Assembly: GCA_020742515.1 (NCBI GenBank)
Contig: DYWT01000237.1
Coordinates: 1-36,384, forward strand
Length of the DNA: 36,384 nt
Source of the DNA: Sporosarcina psychrophila
GTDB taxonomy: Bacteria > Bacillota > Bacilli > Bacillales_A > Planococcaceae
Direction: 5' to 3'
Shown here: in pieces, positions 17,293 to 25,870 of the stretch
Layout of the letters: each line of letters begins with the position of its first letter
Position numbering within the stretch: position 1 is the first letter of the stretch
The notes under the pieces: model-generated
What the model saw: only the letters and a program-made list of their open reading frames with translations
Database searches by the model: none
What the model was told of the DNA's origin: nothing
Position numbers and translations under genes: made by a program

Positions 17293-17322
17293 AAAAAAAC
17301 CAGACAATTTTGTCTGGTTTTT
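17293..17322 (+). terminator. Terminator after CMD-family gene
   Basis: AAAAACCAGACAA (17295-17307) pairs with TTGTCTGGTTTTT (17310-17322), leaving a minimal loop and a T-run on the plus strand. It closes the GGDEF-EAL / ThDP enzyme / CMD transcription unit. Confidence 0.85.
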
Positions 17323-17339
17323 CAATTGTAATGGGATTG

Positions 17340-17688
17340 GTTGGACGCTTCCAGGGCTTTGTTGGACACTTTGAGTTTTTAGTTGGAGACTCCTCCGTTT
17401 GTTGGACGCTTTCCAAGGTTCGTTGCAGACTTCTTAGGGTTGGTTGGACACTTCAATTGGTTCGTTGGAGACTCCCACGTTGGTTGGATGCTTTCCCGGA
17501 TTGGTTGCAGACTCTTCGGGATTGGTTGGACGCTCCCAGGGCTTTGTTGGAGACTTCGATTGATTCGTTGGAAACTCCCCCGTTTGTTGGACGCTTTCCA
17601 AGGTTGGTTGCAGACTCTTTGAGATTGGTTGGACACTTTCCGATCTTTGTTGGACACCTCTATTTTTTCGTTGGAGACTCCCCCGTTT
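17340..17688. repeat. 17-unit 21/19-bp repeat array with higher-order structure
   Basis: 349 bases without interruption: thirteen 21-base units and four 19-base units (3rd, 7th, 12th, 17th), each beginning GTTGGA or GTTGCA. The 19-base units are variants of GTTGGAGACTCCCCCGTTT. Unit types recur in order: GTTGGACGCTTTCC type, GTTGCAGAC type, one or two GTTGGAC/GTTGGAG types, then the 19-base type. The array therefore comprises higher-order blocks (units 1-3, 4-7, 8-12, 13-17). It lies between a terminator and the permease promoter. Reading frames crossing it on both strands are by-products of the repeat and are not called as genes. Confidence 0.9.
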
Positions 17689-17699
17689 GTTTAATATAG

Positions 17700-17708
17700 T
17701 GCTATAAT
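17700..17708 (+). promoter_or_regulatory. Extended -10 promoter of the permease gene
   Basis: TGCTATAAT: TGn followed by a perfect TATAAT (17703-17708), 36 bases before the ATG at 17744. The -35 position (17680-17685) falls inside the last unit of the repeat array and does not resemble TTGACA. Confidence 0.6.
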
Positions 17709-18868: not shown

Positions 18869-19017
18869 ATCGGAATACACGACGCAATGTTAGTAGGCAT
18901 CCAAACTTACTCTTAATTGTCGGAAGTAAATTTAACCGATTCAGCATCGGACCGGACGCTCTCAATCCATTGCCCGTGATGACTTAGTAGATTTGTTTAT
19001 GTACCTATGATCACTTT

Positions 19018-19596
19018 TCACTTCGGTATCGCATAAACAATATACCGTTTTGGCGCATTTCCGATATACCGAAATGGATAGCATGTGGATAAAGTCAACA
19101 TTTCCTCCGGCGCTGTAGAACGGATGACTGTTGTATCATTTTCATCTACAATTTCCGTATCCACAACGGCATATGTAAAGGTCCCATGCTGCATTTCCAT
19201 GATGATTGTATCGCCATTTTGCAATTTGTCCAATCCGGTAAATACGGTGTCCCTGTGTCCCGATAATAAAATTTGATCTTTTTGCCCGGGATAAACGGTG
19301 CCTGTGAAGTGACCAACTCCTTGCTTTAAAGCATCGTCATCCGTCCCTTCCACAATGGGGAGCTCTTTTTGGATAATGGGGATTTGCAGGATGCCGATTG
19401 TTTGACCGTTCTGAAAAGACAGGTCCGGATGGGATGACTCAGGCTGGGATGACTCTATTTTTTGTTTTTCCAGCTCCTCCTTTGCCTGAACCAGTGCGAC
19501 TTTTTCCAACTGCTGTGCAGATTTTAGCTGCACACTGGCGTAGCCTATCAAAAACAGTCCAACCGCCAGCAAAATCACAGCCACTTTTTTCAGCAT
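19018..19596 (-). CDS. Sortase (class D-like transpeptidase)
   Basis: 192 residues: an N-terminal membrane anchor (about 5-22), a charged linker, then the sortase barrel. Catalytic residues are His114 (SGHRDTVF), Cys172 (TLSTCYP) and Arg184 (PKRYIVY). Sortases cut an LPxTG-like signal and attach the protein to peptidoglycan; small Bacillales class D enzymes accept variants such as LPNTA. The adjacent upstream gene encodes a protein ending in an LPATS sorting signal, the obvious substrate. GGAGGAG precedes the ATG. A terminator-like hairpin lies between the two genes, so the sortase may be made at lower level or from its own promoter. Confidence 0.92.
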   Translation of the reverse strand: MLKKVAVILLAVGLFLIGYASVQLKSAQQLEKVALVQAKEELEKQKIESSQPESSHPDLSFQNGQTIGILQIPIIQKELPIVEGTDDDALKQGVGHFTGTVYPGQKDQILLSGHRDTVFTGLDKLQNGDTIIMEMQHGTFTYAVVDTEIVDENDTTVIRSTAPEEMLTLSTCYPFRYIGNAPKRYIVYAIPK

Positions 19597-19655
19597 ATTG
19601 CATCTCCTCCAGCTAATAAAGAATGTGTTGAATCATCACATTTTCACGAAAAACA

Positions 19656-19699
19656 GAAAAGCTACCAAGGCACGATACGCCATGCACAGGCAGCTTTTC
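19656..19699 (-). terminator. Terminator or attenuator between anchor protein and sortase genes
   Basis: On the minus strand GAAAAGCT (19692-19699) pairs with AGCTTTTC (19656-19663), with more pairing inside, and is followed by TGTTTTTCG. It would separate or dampen transcription into the sortase gene. Confidence 0.65.
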
Positions 19700-19735
19700 A
19701 TAAGTTTCTCTGTAACCAATTAATCATTTAAGTGT

Positions 19736-20683
19736 CTATTGAGCTATTTTCATCCGCCTGTAATGTCTGATGATCATCAATACAATTCCGCCTGCCACAA
19801 GTACAGAACCAAAAAGCATCAGATTAAATATGTTTGTCGACGTTGCGGGCAAGCTGAACCCCGCTGATGTTGGATCGCCGCTGTCAATCTGTCCTGGTAT
19901 TGTGACTTGAACCGCCGGGCTATCACTTCCTCCCTCCGCCGGGTTATCGCTTCCTCCGTCCCCTGGGTTATCGCTTCCTTCGCCCCCTGGGTTATCGCTT
20001 CCTTCGCCCCCTGGGTTACCGCTTCCTCCGTCCCCTGGGTTATCGCTTCCTTCGCCCCCTGGGTTATCGCTTCCTTCGCCCCCTGGGTTATCGCTTCCTT
20101 CGCCCCCTGGGTTATCGCTTCCTTCGCCCCCTGGGTTATCGCCTCCTTCGCCCCCTGGGTTATCGCCTCCTTCGCCCCCTGGGTTATCGCCTCCTCCATT
20201 CCCCGGGTTATCTCTTCCTTCCGCCGTAAAAGTGAAAACAAATGCCGCCCCAAGGCCTTGAAAATCATTTCCAAGGTGCTCCGGAAAACGAATAGTGATG
20301 TCCAGATTCTCCCCGCTGCCGCGTGTAAGTTTTCTTGCGGGTAGAGATTTAAATGCAGCCAATTTGCCCTGATACAATTCCTTGTCGTCGACTTTTATTT
20401 CCAGCAGTAGCTCGTTGAACAGCTTTTTTTCTCCACTGTTTTCTAACTGCATTTGGTAGGCAAAATCTTTGCTACCTACGTTTCGGACTGTAATGGTCCG
20501 AGGCGCCCAGTCACCAGGCTTCATATTGTTGATTTCAAATAACGTATCATTTGGTGAAATGCTGATGTCTATATCATTCTTGTTCGTGTTATTTTCACCA
20601 TCTGCAAATACGCTCGTCATGGGAAAGAAACAGATTCCACTAATCAATAGAAGAACCGGAAAAAGTCGAAACAGTTTGCTCAT
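19736..20683 (-). CDS. Sortase-anchored surface protein with TasA-like head and Gly-rich stalk
   Basis: 315 residues: signal peptide (about 1-27), a beta-rich domain (about 35-155) with NNMKPGDWAPRTITVRN, which matches the VDNLKPGDWMNRTF element of the CalY/TasA protein in the same locus, a stalk of twelve eight-residue repeats of DNPGGEG type (157-252), then a sorting signal LPATS (278-282), a membrane segment and a basic tail (RHYRRMK). It should be exported and linked to peptidoglycan by the downstream sortase. The TasA-like head suggests it interacts with the locus's fibre protein; this is inference. AAGGAGG precedes the ATG; the gene starts 33 bases after sipW, so they are co-transcribed. 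Confidence 0.85.
   Translation of the reverse strand: MSKLFRLFPVLLLISGICFFPMTSVFADGENNTNKNDIDISISPNDTLFEINNMKPGDWAPRTITVRNVGSKDFAYQMQLENSGEKKLFNELLLEIKVDDKELYQGKLAAFKSLPARKLTRGSGENLDITIRFPEHLGNDFQGLGAAFVFTFTAEGRDNPGNGGGDNPGGEGGDNPGGEGGDNPGGEGSDNPGGEGSDNPGGEGSDNPGGEGSDNPGDGGSGNPGGEGSDNPGGEGSDNPGDGGSDNPAEGGSDSPAVQVTIPGQIDSGDPTSAGFSLPATSTNIFNLMLFGSVLVAGGIVLMIIRHYRRMKIAQ
19928..20215 (-). repeat. 24-bp in-frame tandem repeat (12 units)
   Basis: Twelve 24-base units, each coding one eight-residue repeat (consensus SDNPGGEG). Many central units are identical at DNA level, which points to recent expansion or homogenisation; edge units are diverged (DNPGNGG, DNPAEGG). The length keeps frame, so copy-number change would only alter stalk length. 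Frames in the other phases of this stretch are shadows. Confidence 0.9.
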
Positions 20684-20716
20684 GATAATGCCTCCTTACA
20701 TATCTTAGCGATCGAT

Positions 20717-21328
20717 TCAGGAAGTACTTTTTCCGCCATCTTCCCCCACTATATTCGGCTTTTTTTTCGGAGACAATTCGATTTCTCCAAGTGCTCTCCA
20801 AATCGTAAACCCCGAGTAGAGTAGCAGCAGGAATCCAGGTATTAATAGCAAAAACGCACCATTCTTCGACTGGGTAAAGTTAATGAAGTACCCTACGTAA
20901 GGCACTGTAAAACCAGTGTACTCCGCTACTACATTGTCAGACATAACTGGATTCATGTCCTCTGCATTGTTGTTGTCACCTTTTGTCCGATAAAGTACGG
21001 AGTCTCCACTTTTGACCACCTCAGTAATCCTATGTGTGATCAAAATATTCTCTTCTTCTTGGAATGTGATGACGTCGCCTTTTTTAAAACTGGTTTTAGC
21101 TACGGCTTGTTTTACGGCGATGATTGAGCCGGTTTGGATTCCCGGCTCCATGGACCCCGACAGAACTGTTTTTAATTGGTAACCGAAAAGCTGTGGCTCG
21201 CCGCCAGAGATTTTCGTGATGACCACTATGGAAGCTACACTAATCAGCAGAACCATCAATATGCTTGAGACGATGCTACTTATCCTCTTCATGCGTTTTT
21301 TCTTTTTCATTAATTTCTTCTCTCTCAT
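20717..21328 (-). CDS. sipW: SipW-type signal peptidase I
   Basis: 203 residues: a basic N-terminus, a membrane segment (about 17-38), catalytic Ser59 in LSGSMEPG, and His99 in LITHRITE in place of the lysine of ordinary bacterial SipS enzymes, the hallmark of ER-type SipW. A second membrane segment lies near the C-terminus (LLLIPGFLLLLYSGF). SipW removes the signal peptides of TasA and TapA. An upstream in-frame GTG (21337) overlaps the AGAAGGTG ribosome binding site, so ATG at 21328 is chosen. The start lies 53 bases inside the preceding tapA-like gene, indicating coupled translation. Confidence 0.93.
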   Translation of the reverse strand: MREKKLMKKKKRMKRISSIVSSILMVLLISVASIVVITKISGGEPQLFGYQLKTVLSGSMEPGIQTGSIIAVKQAVAKTSFKKGDVITFQEEENILITHRITEVVKSGDSVLYRTKGDNNNAEDMNPVMSDNVVAEYTGFTVPYVGYFINFTQSKNGAFLLLIPGFLLLLYSGFTIWRALGEIELSPKKKPNIVGEDGGKSTS

Positions 21329-22097
21329 TTGTATCACCTTCTACTTTCTTTGTGTTATTTTCTGGTTTTACGACAGCGTTCACTTCAGCTTCATTCTTTG
21401 TTTCAGAGTTATTTTCTGGAGCCTTACTTTCTATAGAATCCTTTTCTTCCGGTTTTTTTTCATTAGATTCATCAACAGATTCATCCTTATCGTCCGGCTG
21501 TTTTTGACCGTCATCTTCGGGCTTCTGCTGTTCGTTCTCTTTGTTAGCATCCGAATCTGCTTTATCATCTTCACCTTCTGTGGCCTTATCCTTTTCAATT
21601 TTCTCCTTAGATTCATCATCTATATTCTTGCAGTCGGTCTTAATTTTCTCACTTGATACAGCATCCTGTTCGTCTTCTCCCACAGGCTTATCATCTTCCT
21701 CCTTGCAGTCGACATCGTTTGATCCAGCATCCTGTTCTTCTTTTTCCTTAGACTTATCATCTTTGTCCAGGCAGTCGTCTTCGATTTCCTCACCCGATAC
21801 CGTGTCCTTATCGTTTTCTTCCTTTGGCTTATCATCTTTGTCCTCGCGCTCGATTTTGACTTCCTCGCCCGTTATAGCATCCTTTTCAATTTCCTCACCG
21901 CATTGATTCATAAGAACAACCGGAATTTCAGCAATGATCATCTGAGAGAATTCCGACTGGCTACTGAGAAATGCAGACGTGTTAGATGTCATATAACTGA
22001 TACCAAAGAGGGCTACATAACATACAAGCGCCAATTTTAAAGACAGAAATAGACCGCTATGCTTTTCCCTACGTTTGCGCCTTCGCTTGCTTTTCAA
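21276..22097 (-). CDS. TapA-like exported protein with acidic repeat tail
   Basis: 273 residues. A very basic start (RRRKRREK) precedes a membrane or signal segment (about 16-36) and the motif TSNTSAFLS (37-45), which resembles the SipW-type processing region of TapA/YqxM. The remainder, from about 67, is strongly acidic and low in hydrophobics, with four to five degenerate repeats of about 26 residues (DKDTVSGEEIEDDC, DEQDAVSSEKIKTDC). Bacillus TapA also ends in a Lys/Glu-rich tail. TapA nucleates and anchors TasA fibres; homology here rests on position, N-terminus and composition. TTG start with AAGGTGGG upstream. The gene overlaps sipW by 53 bases. Confidence 0.7.
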   Translation of the reverse strand: MKSKRRRKRREKHSGLFLSLKLALVCYVALFGISYMTSNTSAFLSSQSEFSQMIIAEIPVVLMNQCGEEIEKDAITGEEVKIEREDKDDKPKEENDKDTVSGEEIEDDCLDKDDKSKEKEEQDAGSNDVDCKEEDDKPVGEDEQDAVSSEKIKTDCKNIDDESKEKIEKDKATEGEDDKADSDANKENEQQKPEDDGQKQPDDKDESVDESNEKKPEEKDSIESKAPENNSETKNEAEVNAVVKPENNTKKVEGDTNEREEINEKEKTHEEDK

Positions 22098-22224
22098 CCT
22101 GATCCCACCTTTCGAGTTTTCATCACTGGATTTTTCTTACGTATATTCCTCAAAACACAAAATCAAGTTATATGTTGAGAAATATAAATAAGGATGGCAT
22201 CGACTGTCTGATGAAATAAAATGA

Positions 22225-22247
22225 GGGAGGAGAAAAGCTCTCCTCCC
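22225..22247 (-). terminator. Partial terminator after calY
   Basis: GGGAGGAGA (22225-22233) pairs perfectly with TCTCCTCCC (22239-22247), 11 bases past the calY stop. The minus strand continues TCATTTTATTTC, an imperfect T-tract. It could lower read-through so that more CalY than TapA/SipW is made. Confidence 0.6.
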
Positions 22248-22257
22248 GGGATATATG

Positions 22258-22854
22258 TTATTTCGATTCTCCAGCTGTCTGCTGTGCATCAAATGTCCAC
22301 TTTAATTCTAGATTTGCGTCTTGATAAGCATTTTGATCTTGGCCATTATCATTAAATCTAAACTTTACGTACATATTATCTTTCGATCCAGCCTTAAGAC
22401 CGCTTTTTTCACCATCCTGCCATCCAAACCATTTAGGTGATTCATTTTTAACGGCATCCGCTGACATATTTTTCAATTCGCTTAATTTCTTGCTTACGAT
22501 TAAATTGCTTGGTCCAGTGATACCGCTCTTATCATCATTTCTAAGGAATTCAACTACAATATGATCACCAAAACCTGCTACCGATTCTGTATAGTCAGTT
22601 GTCAATAGAACTTTGGAAATATCAAGACTTCCATTGTTCTCCAATTTAAAAGTTCGATTCATCCAGTCACCAGGCTTCAAATTGTCTACACTAATAATAG
22701 TTTCGGGATTCACTGCTAAATCCAATGTACCAGCAGCGAATGTATTCACGCTTGTTTCAACATCATTGAAATAAGCATATGTTCCCCCGCCAATCATACT
22801 TACAGCCAATGCTCCAGTTGCGATACCCATTGCTAGTTTCTTTTTAATACTCAT
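22258..22854 (-). CDS. calY: CalY/TasA family matrix fibre protein (peptidase M73/camelysin family)
   Basis: 198 residues, the size of Bacillus cereus camelysin CalY (B. subtilis TasA is longer). A SipW-type signal peptide (MSIKKKLAMGIATGALAVSM, then GGGTYAYFND) ends near residue 28. The mature beta-sandwich carries FAAGTLDLAVNP and VDNLKPGDWMNRTFKLEN. Members assemble into amyloid-like extracellular fibres of the biofilm matrix; CalY was once described as a metalloprotease. GGGGGA lies nine bases before the ATG. First gene of the surface locus. A 61-codon Lys-rich frame ends two bases before the ATG and might be a leader peptide, but has no clear ribosome binding site. Confidence 0.95.
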   Translation of the reverse strand: MSIKKKLAMGIATGALAVSMIGGGTYAYFNDVETSVNTFAAGTLDLAVNPETIISVDNLKPGDWMNRTFKLENNGSLDISKVLLTTDYTESVAGFGDHIVVEFLRNDDKSGITGPSNLIVSKKLSELKNMSADAVKNESPKWFGWQDGEKSGLKAGSKDNMYVKFRFNDNGQDQNAYQDANLELKWTFDAQQTAGESK

Positions 22855-23768
22855 TTTTAATTTCCCCCAATATAATTTTTATTTTTCACCTTTATTGATT
22901 GCTTGTTCTTTGTTCTTTCCTGTGTCTTGGAAGAAATTGTTTTCTTCTTCGATGTTAGGTATGAGTTCTTTTTTACTTTTGATAACGCAGACTTGATTCC
23001 ATGCGCTATTTTCATAGTCTGGCAGCTATTCACAGCTTCCAATTCCCACTTTTCTCTGGAAGAGTTTCCATTCCTCTCAGAGGAGTCTCCGATTAGATAT
23101 TAATCTCCAGATTTAAGTATCTCTTTATACCGTCCATCCCCTTCCTAAGACTGCGTTTTATCCACTATGCAATGGAACTGTGTTCAGTATAACTAAAGCA
23201 AAGCCACTTCATCTCCCCTCAAATGGGTGATTTTTTTGCATTTTGACATACTACTTTGTAATGATCGTCATCGCATACTTTCGTGTCATTCAATTTAACG
23301 CTTCTATTATTTAGTGAAATTCTCCCATTAGTTTGTTCTATAGGAGCTAAGAGATATGAAACGACGAAATAAACAACAAGTTTGCAAAGAAAGTGTTTGC
23401 TGACTCCAGATAAACGACATAATTTTCGAAAAATAACAAGTATAATGGTAACAACAGAAAATTCACACTAGGCACTAGTTCTCATTTTGAATGGTAGTGC
23501 TCCAATCATTAACATTCATCAGTATCGTCATGCTTTTGTCTATACTATACTTAAAAATATGTTCTTATAAGATGCGGTCATCTCACAAACAATTAATGGT
23601 CAACCAGTTACAGCAATAGGGATTTAAGCTTTTCAGAGCAGGAGACTAGGAGATACATCCTCTATCTGGGCACCTTGGATGTATGGAGTCAGTGGTGCAA
23701 CCGACCTCATTTCATTTGGACTTCTTGAATGAGAAGCGCACTTTTATTTTGAGTGAGGAGGCTATATA
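22855..23768. other. Long divergent regulatory region between calY and the response regulator
   Basis: 914 bases without a convincing gene. The calY side carries small hairpin-forming sequences (TCCTCTCAGAGGA type near 23070-23090) and a Lys-rich 61-codon minus-strand frame (22857-23042) of doubtful reality. CTCCCC...GGGTGATTTTTTT near 23213-23238 resembles a weak plus-strand terminator. The 23641-23755 part is a structured leader for the response regulator. Promoters were not resolved with confidence. Such length fits multiple regulator sites for a biofilm operon. Confidence 0.5.
23641..23735 (+). promoter_or_regulatory. Candidate structured 5' leader of the response regulator
   Basis: ATACATCC (23653-23660) pairs with GGATGTAT (23677-23684), extended by GACT/AGTC outside. 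The loop holds GGCACC, which can pair with GGTGC at about 23695-23699, giving a possible pseudoknot. A further stem CTCATT/AATGAG (about 23705-23732) follows. No known riboswitch consensus was matched. Confidence 0.35.
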
Positions 23769-23771
23769 TTG

Positions 23772-24425
23772 ATGAAAATTGTATTGGTGAATGATCAAAC
23801 AATTATCCGTAAAGGGTTGATCTCGATTTTATCGTTGAAGGATACAATGGAAATAGTGGGAGAGGCTAGCAACAAACAAGAAGCGCTTCTTCTGATTCAA
23901 AGAGAAAAACCGGATTTGGCTATTGTTGATTTTCATTTGGGAAAAGAATGTGGATTAGATTTGATTACTGAAGCGAGACAAATAGGTGGCATCTGTAAAT
24001 TCGCCATCCTTACCTATTCAAAAGATCCGCTGTCTTTCCAACGTGCGAAGGCAATGGATGTGGATGGCTATATATCACTTGAATCACATGCCGAAGAACT
24101 CATTTATGCTTTTCAAATGATTCATAGAGGAAGGAAGTATTATGACCCGGACATAATCGACCTGCTAATGCATTCACGGAATAATCCACGAATGGATGGC
24201 AGCCGTGTAGAGCAACTTACCTCTAAGGAAAGAGAGGTGTTGCAAAAACTCGGAATTGGATTTTCGAATAAACAAATAGCTGAGAATCTATTCATCACAG
24301 AAAATACAGTAAAAAAGCATGTCAGCCAGGTCTTATCGAAATTGGACCTTGGCGATCGTACGCAGGCTGCGCTCTATGCGAACGAAACCGGATTGGTGCA
24401 ATATAAGAATGACATACCGGTTTAA
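23772..24425 (+). CDS. NarL/FixJ-type response regulator (orphan, atypical receiver)
   Basis: 217 residues: receiver domain (1-115) and LuxR HTH (about 150-210: LTSKEREVLQKLGIGFSNKQ). The phosphoacceptor Asp53 (IVDFHLG) and Thr81 remain. The acidic pair is Asn7-Asp8 (LVNDQ), and the conserved lysine after GY is Leu103 (GYISLES), so phosphorylation chemistry may be altered or absent. TTG at 23769 is an equally spaced start option after GAGGAGG. No histidine kinase is adjacent. It is divergent from the calY locus and may regulate it; that is inference from position. Confidence 0.88.
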   Translation: MKIVLVNDQTIIRKGLISILSLKDTMEIVGEASNKQEALLLIQREKPDLAIVDFHLGKECGLDLITEARQIGGICKFAILTYSKDPLSFQRAKAMDVDGYISLESHAEELIYAFQMIHRGRKYYDPDIIDLLMHSRNNPRMDGSRVEQLTSKEREVLQKLGIGFSNKQIAENLFITENTVKKHVSQVLSKLDLGDRTQAALYANETGLVQYKNDIPV

Positions 24426-24519
24426 CATAGCGTTTCCTATCGAGCGCTGGGTTCTAAGGTAATTCCGACAACTATCGAGTTGTGAAGTCGCCTAACATTC
24501 CGTTAGTAGACTACAAAAG

Positions 24520-24568
24520 AAAATAACCAGAAACAACCAACTATCTCTCGGGATGGTTAGCTATTTTT
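24520..24568 (+). terminator. Terminator after response regulator
   Basis: AACCA (24535-24539) pairs with TGGTT (24554-24558), with outer AAATA/TATTT pairing, followed by a TTTTTT run. Located about 110 bases past the stop. Confidence 0.55.
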
Positions 24569-24656
24569 TGAATGTAAATTAAAACTCCGTATCTATGAGA
24601 TAACAACACTATACAAATACTTCTACTGACAACGTTAAGTATTTTGAAGAACAAAA

Positions 24657-24696
24657 AAGCCTAACCCCTCCGTATCTTGAGCGAGGAATTAGGCTT
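24657..24696 (-). terminator. Terminator of bla
   Basis: On the minus strand AAGCCTAA (complement of 24689-24696) pairs with TTAGGCTT (complement of 24657-24664), with CCTC/GAGG inside, then TTTTTTG. Strong intrinsic terminator for the bla transcript. Confidence 0.8.
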
Positions 24697-24801
24697 ATGA
24701 TCTTTAACAATCGGGTTGGATTGTGGAAGAGCTTAACAGTTATTCAAGATAAGCCTCCTTTCGTTTAAATATATTATTCCTCCAACTTTCTTGTAGTAAA
24801 A

Positions 24802-24826
24802 TACGACCTTCACCCGAAGAGTCGTA
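24802..24826 (-). terminator. Hairpin just past the bla stop
   Basis: TACGAC (24802-24807) pairs with GTCGTA (24821-24826) with TTC/GAA inside; the minus strand continues TTTTACTAC. Weaker than the downstream terminator; it may protect the mRNA 3' end. Confidence 0.45.
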
Positions 24827-24847
24827 CTCTTTCTCTAAAATGTTCAT

Positions 24848-25789
24848 CTATTTGTTGTTAGAAAACGCCTGCACAATCACTTTTGTAGCCTTGGCGATGA
24901 GTTCATCATTGAAGCTGGCATCCTCTTCATTGCGACTTGACATGATCGCAATAATAATTGGTTCTCGATTTGGGGGCCACACAATCGCTATATCATTTCG
25001 AGTTCCATAGCCACCGGCTCCACTCTTATCTCCAACCTCCCAACCTTCTGGTACACCAGCTCGAATGAGGGAATCACCCGTAGTACTCCCTTTTAGCCAA
25101 TTTGTAAAAATTTCTTGCTTATCGGCGGGAAGGTACTCACTGATCCCAAACAACTCAAGGGATGTTGCCAGTGCTTTAGGGGTACTTGTATCCCGTGAAT
25201 CCCCAGGAATCGCTTCGTTCAAATCTGGTTCAATACGGTCAGCCATTGTGATCGTATCGCCACTTTCTCGTAACGCCTTTTCAAATCCATCTGGTCCACC
25301 TAATTCTTCGAACAGAAGATTTCCTGCTGTATTATCACTGTACTGCATTGCTGCTTCAGCTATCTTTCCTAGACTCATCCCTTTGTTCACAAAGTCTTCT
25401 GTAATCGGAGAATAGGTAACAATATCTTCATCGGTGAATGTCCTTATTTCCTCAAGCACTGCTATCGGATTTTGCTTTAATAAAATAGCTGTGGCTAAGG
25501 CCTTGGAAGTAGATGTGTACGCAAATCGTTCGTCCTCACGAAATTCCGCGGTTTCTTTTGTTCCTGTGTCAATGGCATAGACTCCAAGCCTCGTGTCATA
25601 TTCCTTCTCAAGTTGTTCAAATTTCTTCAATGTGGTTTCTTTTGCCGTACTATTTTCTGACGTTTGGTTGGTTTGCGCCGTCTGTTCAGTTTCTGAATGT
25701 TGTACAACCTGTTTTTTCTCATCTGAGCAGCCTGCAACCATAAGCACCAAGCCTATTGGTGCTACCATTTGATAAAATCTTTTGTTCAT
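24848..25789 (-). CDS. bla: Class A beta-lactamase (lipoprotein penicillinase)
   Basis: 313 residues. Lipoprotein signal with lipobox VAGC (Cys21), then a Gln/Thr/Ser-rich linker (about 25-52) and the class A domain. Active-site elements are intact: STSK (93-96, catalytic Ser93), SDN (151-153), EPDLN (187-191, Glu187 equals Ambler Glu166) and KSG (255-257, in place of KTG). It hydrolyses penicillins at the outer face of the membrane; the substrate range cannot be read reliably. GGAGG is placed ten bases before the ATG. Divergent from blaR1-blaI, with three BlaI operators in the shared promoter region, so it is inducible by beta-lactams. This is the common chromosomal penicillinase layout of Bacillales, with no sign of a mobile element. 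Confidence 0.95.
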   Translation of the reverse strand: MNKRFYQMVAPIGLVLMVAGCSDEKKQVVQHSETEQTAQTNQTSENSTAKETTLKKFEQLEKEYDTRLGVYAIDTGTKETAEFREDERFAYTSTSKALATAILLKQNPIAVLEEIRTFTDEDIVTYSPITEDFVNKGMSLGKIAEAAMQYSDNTAGNLLFEELGGPDGFEKALRESGDTITMADRIEPDLNEAIPGDSRDTSTPKALATSLELFGISEYLPADKQEIFTNWLKGSTTGDSLIRAGVPEGWEVGDKSGAGGYGTRNDIAIVWPPNREPIIIAIMSSRNEEDASFNDELIAKATKVIVQAFSNNK

Positions 25790-25870
25790 GATGTAAAACC
25801 TCCTAATTGTTTGATTAGACTCCTATGTACGAATTGAAAAAACAACCTTATTCAAGGAGTTTTTACAGAT

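Follow-up and report, generated by a model that had tools for sequence, protein, structure and literature searches.

In Bacillus subtilis, the tapA-sipW-tasA operon encodes the TasA-family fibre subunit, the signal peptidase SipW and TapA, a protein with a donor strand. According to the available parts of the papers cited here and below, residues 28–38 of TasA form the donor strand and TapA donates the first strand to TasA (PMC9674648, PMC10151520), and F29 of subunit n, Q232 of subunit n+1 and F200 of subunit n+2 surround P62 of subunit n+2 (PMC10151520). TapA was first named as an anchoring protein, and later work describes a chaperone that starts the fibre and has little part afterwards (PMC10151520); the hold of TasA fibres on cells is unsettled. 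Here we describe a locus of Sporosarcina psychrophila (contig DYWT01000237.1; the 36,384 nucleotides analysed are called the window) that encodes CalY/TasA, a TapA-like protein, SipW, a wall-anchor protein with a TasA-like head and a class D sortase (SrtD). With a probability of roughly 0.6, the locus makes a TasA-type donor-strand fibre whose wall-anchored end subunit can only accept a strand. Computed support comes from the homology and predicted fold of the head, its missing donor strand, the conservation of the genes and the association of sortase and sorting motif. From these we infer a complex between the head and TasA, the direction and timing of capping, an excess of TasA and a covalent linkage to the wall.

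Gram-negative chaperone-usher pili (FimH, FimG, FimA, PapH) are donor-strand polymers with a one-sided end subunit, and in Gram-positive sortase-assembled pili a sortase joins the base subunit to peptidoglycan. The Sporosarcina locus resembles the former in its predicted one-sided end subunit and in the fold of the anchor head, which matches FimG and the pilin domain of PapG; it differs in that no usher or chaperone was found by name, no sequence relation exists and the end subunit has a signal for sorting to the wall. Unlike in sortase-assembled pili, polymerisation here would be non-covalent, CalY lacks a sorting motif, and the sortase is of class D, not class C (the class C model gives 100.4 bits, cut-off 160). 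To our knowledge, non-covalent donor-strand polymerisation of TasA and sortase anchoring are known only apart. Compared with the B. subtilis operon, residues F29, F39, P62, F200 and Q232 are kept in CalY, whereas tasA comes first, a hairpin follows it and TapA lacks the Ig domain. We know of no anchor gene in the B. subtilis operon; B. subtilis itself was not among the genomes searched for one.

Two further filament systems come close. The TasA-CalY-CapP system of Bacillus cereus also has CalY/TasA filaments with SipW and a partner protein that its repetitive tail keeps in the cell wall. It differs in being described as independent of sortase and in the DUF4047 domain of CapP, and the available parts of the paper mention no TasA-like LPxT architecture (PMC13082335). 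In Clostridium perfringens, a TasA-type filament protein and SipW (sipW-bsaA) are encoded beside the sortase gene srtB, but srtB deletion left polymers and pellicle unchanged, BsaA has no LPXTG, and the available parts of the report describe no TasA-like wall-anchored partner (PMC7395162). The class D sortases of B. subtilis (YhcS), B. anthracis (SrtC) and B. cellulosilyticus share sortase family and motif with our locus (NF058671, NF058670). Their substrates, as far as the accessible parts of the reports go, are mainly enzymes, plus BasH and BasI, with no TasA-family fibre part among them (PMC3617157, PMC3222306, PMC3208642).

The five genes and the family of the anchor head

The sequence-only reading had described five same-strand genes, and its descriptions hold: all five lie on the minus strand, in the transcription order calY/tasA, TapA-like gene, sipW, anchor gene, sortase gene. 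The features are as follows.

22258..22854, minus strand: calY/tasA, major fibre subunit, 198 residues; PF12389 (E value 4.7e-72, 242.4 bits), SipW-type signal peptide TIGR04088
22729..22773, minus strand: donor-strand region of CalY/TasA, residues 28–42 (YFND...FAAG), aligned to F29 and F39 of TasA
22225..22247, minus strand: terminator-like hairpin with T-rich tail directly 3' of tasA, a possible attenuator ahead of the minor genes
21276..22097, minus strand: TapA-like protein, 273 residues, with signal, donor-like strand and acidic tail; TIGR04087, residues 3–54 only
21927..21974, minus strand: predicted donor strand of the TapA-like protein, residues 42–57, AFLSSQSEFSQMIIAE, with the spacing of the TasA donor strand
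20717..21337, minus strand: sipW, signal peptidase, 206 residues; NF046067, 290.5 bits (cut-off 190)
19736..20683, minus strand: anchor protein, 315 residues, with Sec-like signal peptide, TasA-like head, Gly-rich stalk and LPxTATN sorting signal; PF12389 and NF058670 over cut-off
20216..20602, minus strand: TasA-like head of the anchor, residues 28–156; hhalign, AlphaFold2, Foldseek
19853..20215, minus strand: anchor stalk, Gly/Asp/Pro-rich, 121 residues, mostly a 24-base tandem repeat
19832..19852, minus strand: sorting motif LPATSTN of the anchor, at the start of the NF058670 match
19739..19831, minus strand: hydrophobic segment and positively charged tail of the sorting signal, read from the sequence and the NF058670 match (278–309)
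19018..19596, minus strand: class D sortase, LPxTATN-specific, 192 residues; NF058671, 247.5 bits (cut-off 140)

Four of the five genes are backed by curated models: calY by PF12389, sipW by NF046067, the anchor gene by NF058670 and PF12389, and the sortase gene by NF058671. The signal peptide of CalY is of the SipW type (TIGR04088, 44.8 bits, cut-off 19). The whole protein scores 92.1 bits against the TasA equivalog model NF046066 (cut-off 450), and by its profile matches we class the product as a CalY/TasA-family protein, not a TasA equivalog. The TapA-like protein reaches 24.9 bits against TIGR04087 (cut-off 80) over residues 3–54 only, and its label is based on its N-terminus, position, SipW-type signal region and acidic tail. 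The C-terminus of the anchor protein matches the LPxTATN sorting signal NF058670 (38.1 bits, cut-off 32); its closest named relative is a protein of Sporosarcina sp. E16_8. SipW was considered and rejected as the peptidase of the anchor, TIGR04088 being absent among its matches; judged by eye, the anchor signal appears to be of the ordinary Sec kind.

The proposed relationship of the anchor head to TasA was borne out by profile, PDB-sequence and fold comparisons. Residues 26–75 of the anchor match PF12389 (25.6 bits, cut-off 22.5), and hhalign, run with 64 heads against 59 CalY/TasA sequences, aligned the whole head (E value 1.9e-15, 98.5%, 125 columns). A profile search of PDB sequences with the head placed TasA (5of1/8aur) in the top two positions, although weakly (E value 0.01). 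The AlphaFold2 model of the head, built from the 64-sequence alignment, had a mean predicted local distance difference test (pLDDT) score of 89.5, with values below 50 for the first seven residues. Foldseek matched this model best to the TasA fibre 8aur_A (E value 1.3e-4, template modelling (TM) score 0.60, root-mean-square deviation 5.7), with Pyrobaculum bundling pili and FimG next and the pilin domain of PapG also among the matches; each of the first eight rows was a pilus subunit, of the TasA, the archaeal bundling or the Fim/Pap kind, and five of the 1758 matches had an E value of 0.001 or below. The CalY model (pLDDT 74.9) likewise matched 8aur_A best (E value 2.0e-11), with TasA monomers next. 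The KPGDW element, which the sequence-only reading had found common to fibre protein and anchor, is present in both and invariant in 64/64 aligned anchor heads. The Brevibacillus homologue L104, a 440-residue open reading frame (ORF) with 27% identity and no motif, was excluded from the head alignment and motif counts but kept among the 64 loci surveyed below. By these profile and model comparisons, the anchor head is assigned to the TasA family.

Donor and acceptor sides of the fibre proteins

All five contact residues of TasA (F29, F39, P62, F200 and Q232) are present in the CalY of this locus, as in a donor-strand subunit. Among the TasA/CalY proteins of the surveyed loci, F29 and P62 are kept in 84/84, F200 and Q232 in 83/84 each and F39 in 78/84; an earlier count over 59 of these 84 sequences, which left out 25 mostly divergent second copies, had found all five invariant. 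In the anchors, the equivalent of P62 (the proline of KPGD) is present in 64/64 and the F200 position holds phenylalanine in 60/64, while the Q232 position holds glutamine in one of the 64 and glycine in 44. No residues equivalent to F29 or F39 were found in the anchors, whose predicted mature protein begins a few residues before the first strand, and a strict donor pattern was matched by 71/84 TasA/CalY proteins versus 0/64 anchors. The anchor head thus has the TasA fold but is not a middle subunit by its donor-strand features. Since an acceptor-only last subunit must offer P62 and F200 and has no later subunit to contact, the residue pattern of the anchors fits that need. The lack of a donor strand in the anchor and of an acceptor domain in TapA is an asymmetry that suggests how the fibre would be capped.

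No Ig domain was found in the TapA-like protein: the Ig-type TapA model matched its N-terminus and, beyond that, only a tail segment at 2.3 bits. Throughout the surveyed Planococcaceae (21276–22097 in the window; L028–L034, L041–L050, L109–L124), TapA shows no Ig domain and retains the signal, the donor-like strand and a long acidic tail. These sequences match the Ig-type model weakly beyond the N-terminus, and the two long weak matches (L032, L117) resemble acidic tail by eye; 46 of the 50 scored sequences from outside the family had gone into the model itself, so that the count of 46/50 is circular and was not used. The spacing of the TasA donor strand occurs in 24/25 distinct Planococcaceae TapA sequences and 29/46 from other families, against 1/71 in a control further along the same proteins, the relaxed pattern having been defined after the sequences had been seen. 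B. subtilis TapA cleaved down to residues 44–57 still supports biofilm (PMC10151520), which makes a natural minimal TapA plausible, and the TapA-like protein may work like TapA via its N-terminus. Separately, in Bacillus coahuilensis (L078:6534–7958) TapA-like and SipW sequences share one frame of 474 residues, either a natural fusion or a sequencing error.

A hairpin similar to that at 22225–22247 follows 70/83 tasA genes and 6/83 base-shuffled controls in a single ad hoc scan, which also found one after 15/62 sipW, 26/64 anchor and 18/37 sortase genes. Partial read-through at this hairpin would make TasA the major product.

The proposed fibre would then form as follows. SipW would cleave CalY/TasA, which is probably made in excess because the hairpin follows tasA, and CalY/TasA would polymerise as each N-terminal strand enters the groove of the following subunit. 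The first donor strand would come from the TapA-like protein, which in this lineage could only donate, since it lacks the Ig domain. The anchor protein would be exported via its ordinary Sec-like signal. Its head, which keeps the acceptor side (KPGD proline and F200-equivalent), could receive a final TasA strand but not donate one in turn, as it has no donor strand and, in 63/64 homologues, no Q232-equivalent. The class D sortase encoded next door would cut LPATS and join the anchor to peptidoglycan. Acceptance of a TasA strand by the anchor would then both terminate the fibre and attach it to the wall.

Instead of capping the fibre, the anchor could be a wall-bound TasA-like adhesin or tether that touches the sides of fibres or the matrix, with its own first strand occupying the groove, as happens in the TasA monomer. 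TasA monomers complement themselves with residues 48–61 (PMC9674648), the head keeps that segment, and most stalks are short (see below); a side contact would not, however, need the nearly invariant acceptor-side residues and the loss of the donor side seen in the anchors, and Foldseek puts the fibre form 8aur first, with the monomers 5of1/5of2 not among the best 50 of 1758 matches. We consider this explanation unlikely. A less probable arrangement still is that the head takes the donor strand of TapA rather than that of TasA, so that the anchor holds the nucleator TapA at the wall and fibres start there. The TasA-like spacing of the TapA strand, the TapA-like ORF in the same gene group at 58/64 loci and the reported colocalisation of B. 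subtilis TapA with the membrane (PMC10151520) would all agree with it, but a TapA strand so used would no longer be free to start a TasA chain, an Ig-less TapA has no second binding domain, and published TapA donates to TasA (PMC9674648, PMC10151520).

Conservation of the gene group, the sortase and the stalk

With the anchor head as query, genome_contigs yielded 64 loci in named genomes, of genera that include Sporosarcina, Psychrobacillus, Solibacillus, Oceanobacillus, Virgibacillus, Ornithinibacillus, Lentibacillus, Rossellomorea and Fictibacillus. The gene order proposed from the window proved to be kept in many relatives. Among these loci, tasA was present in 60, sipW upstream of the anchor gene in 61 and a TapA-like ORF before sipW in 58; the TapA-like genes were assigned by this position, the N-terminus of the window protein matching 34/79 records, and some of the 58 may be other proteins. 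The four genes tasA, TapA-like ORF, sipW and anchor occur together in 58/64 loci and all five genes in 33/64, with a sipW–anchor gap of at most 112 bp in 57/61. Where the related sortase gene is nearby, it lies downstream in Sporosarcina-like loci, and many other loci have it upstream of tasA in divergent orientation. The flank (up to 8 kb) contained no sortase at 28 loci; a genome-wide check of 25 of these revealed an SrtD over the cut-off in 20 and none over it in 5.

Across 261 genomes of Planococcaceae (GTDB), SipW was over the cut-off in 26 and the anchor occurred in 24, all among those 26, and in 0/235 others; five further genomes lack the anchor and match SipW only below the cut-off. 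In a class-wide survey of 398 genomes, an anchor-profile match (E value of 1e-6 or below) was found in 27/40 genomes with SipW over the cut-off and in 11/358 others, 9 of these 11 having a sub-cut-off SipW match; some of the class-wide matches are weak and may represent other TasA-like proteins. One scan of viral_contigs found no related locus. It is very improbable that a sortase–substrate pair merely lies by chance at a tasA operon with no functional tie to the fibre: such a loose neighbourhood would agree with an SrtD without anchor in G003 and in 59/73 SrtD genomes of the family, with SrtD genes far from the anchor in G005 and G013 and with an anchor-like protein and sortase lacking TasA/SipW in the 18 kb fetched around L036, but not with four genes together at 58/64 loci, the short sipW–anchor gaps, the confinement of the anchor to SipW genomes of the family or a head of the TasA family.

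In another genome, marked as the same species (G262), no SipW, anchor or SrtD match was found at the thresholds used. The left flank is 97–98% identical to the window up to position 18890 and then stops (window 18890–24822 compared with L134 and L135 of G262), and the G262 pieces matching window 24822–25832 lie far away; judged from these alignments, the fibre locus varies between strains. Outside the locus, the window contains a repeat-rich stretch at 17310–17700 (units of about 21, 42, 82 and 103 bases), and the segment around it is about 280 bases shorter in G262.

Covalent sorting of the base subunit to peptidoglycan, as the sequence-only reading had it, is favoured by adjacency, by a single SrtD/LPxTATN pair and by motif decay in the absence of SrtD; the linkage itself we infer. 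This genome contains a single protein over the LPxTATN cut-off, the anchor, and a single SrtD over its cut-off, the neighbouring sortase; two weaker sortases are also present. The motif of 63 homologues (L041–L103) is LPxT[AS] in 53, LPxTG in 6 and broken in 4, and the four broken-motif anchors are exactly those of the 4/25 checked genomes without any SrtD match. Among 24 family genomes, including these four, LPxT[AS] was found in 14/14 with SrtD and 2/10 without (E value of 1e-40 or below for SrtD); the Fisher value for this association was 6e-5 over the 24 genomes and 2e-6 over 37 genus genomes, uncorrected for kinship. The anchors of sortase-less genomes still carry the hydrophobic segment and the basic tail, suggesting that in these genomes the membrane retains them. 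Two of the six LPxTG anchors (L091, L092) have a neighbouring sortase whose best score is for class C, though below the cut-off, and a third (L075) belongs to a genome without SrtD over the cut-off.

B. subtilis YhcS anchors LPDTS and LPDTA proteins (PMC3222306). The sortase–motif pair is already named by NCBIfam and is thus known; its use on a TasA-family fibre part seems new. Several neighbouring cases were observed. In L091 and L092, the anchor motif reads LPxTGES and the sortase is nearer to class C than to class D, possibly a joint switch of motif and enzyme. L032 (G031) has three tasA paralogues upstream of an anchor with the decayed motif LLGSSTK, and no SrtD match (E value of 1e-10 or below) occurs genome-wide. 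In L036 (G038), a class D sortase adjoins a longer TasA-head protein with the motif LPNTAEP, and the 18 kb fetched gave no match to SipW or TasA; a TasA-head protein and sortase pair may exist as a separate module there and in other large genomes of the class survey.

The stalk of the anchor consists largely of a 24-base repeat in 11.7 copies. Long stalks with a shared 8-residue repeat occur in the window (121 residues), G030 (113) and G261 (105), and the close relative G002 has a stalk of 25 residues; on sequence comparison, the repeat (19853–20215; L028, L122, L027) appears to be fast-changing. In 59 of the 63 homologues L041–L103, those with a recognisable motif, the median stalk length was 27 residues (quartiles 25 and 37). 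A spacer of adjustable length, as first proposed, is supported only locally, for this genome and two close relatives; as a general rule it is rejected or at least weakened by the short median.

Fibre attachment in the Bacillales

Several observations weigh against the capped, wall-anchored fibre. At the structural level, the fold match of the head to 8aur_A is moderate, and confidence in the CalY model is only medium. A related sortase lies in the flank in only 36/64 loci, SrtD occurs without an anchor in G003, within the genus, and SrtD genes lie far from the anchor in G005 and G013. Since 59/73 family genomes with SrtD have no anchor, this sortase type usually serves other proteins; conversely, in 10 of the 24 family genomes that keep the anchor no SrtD was found (E value of 1e-40 or below), so that the linkage is not indispensable there. 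The association of motif and sortase rests on about three events, as the tree requires three sortase losses, and a tree-aware sign test, for which two to three independent pairs are too few to reach significance, was not significant (median p 0.5). The rule is also not strict, LPxTG anchors being found in L077, L083 and L087 despite an SrtD-type sortase. With a median of 27 residues, the stalk would leave most heads inside the wall. Finally, the C. perfringens srtB gene beside sipW is not required for BsaA polymers, according to the available parts of that report (PMC7395162).

Taken as a whole, the interpretation is partly supported, and the core of the earlier model, a wall-anchored base subunit, is supported and sharpened. 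There is about an even chance that the locus exemplifies a hybrid fibre, widespread in the Bacillales, that joins donor-strand polymerisation to sortase anchoring through one-way ends, with TapA as donor only, TasA as donor and acceptor and the anchor head as acceptor only, and that some lineages hold their fibres in the membrane, as it seems, after sortase loss. Among the open-access papers that our searches listed, none describes a sortase-anchored TasA-family protein in its title or the opening of its abstract; subscription papers and preprints lie outside this scope, and the novelty is provisional. If the model is true, the acceptor-only anchor would be the Gram-positive counterpart of the one-sided end subunits known from Gram-negative pili, and engineered TasA materials could be fixed to cells in a simple way. 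For many Bacillales, this conserved gene group, whose wall-sorted partner has a TasA fold with the acceptor side only, provides a direct and testable answer to the question of fibre attachment, in which the lineages that have naturally lost the sortase serve as controls.

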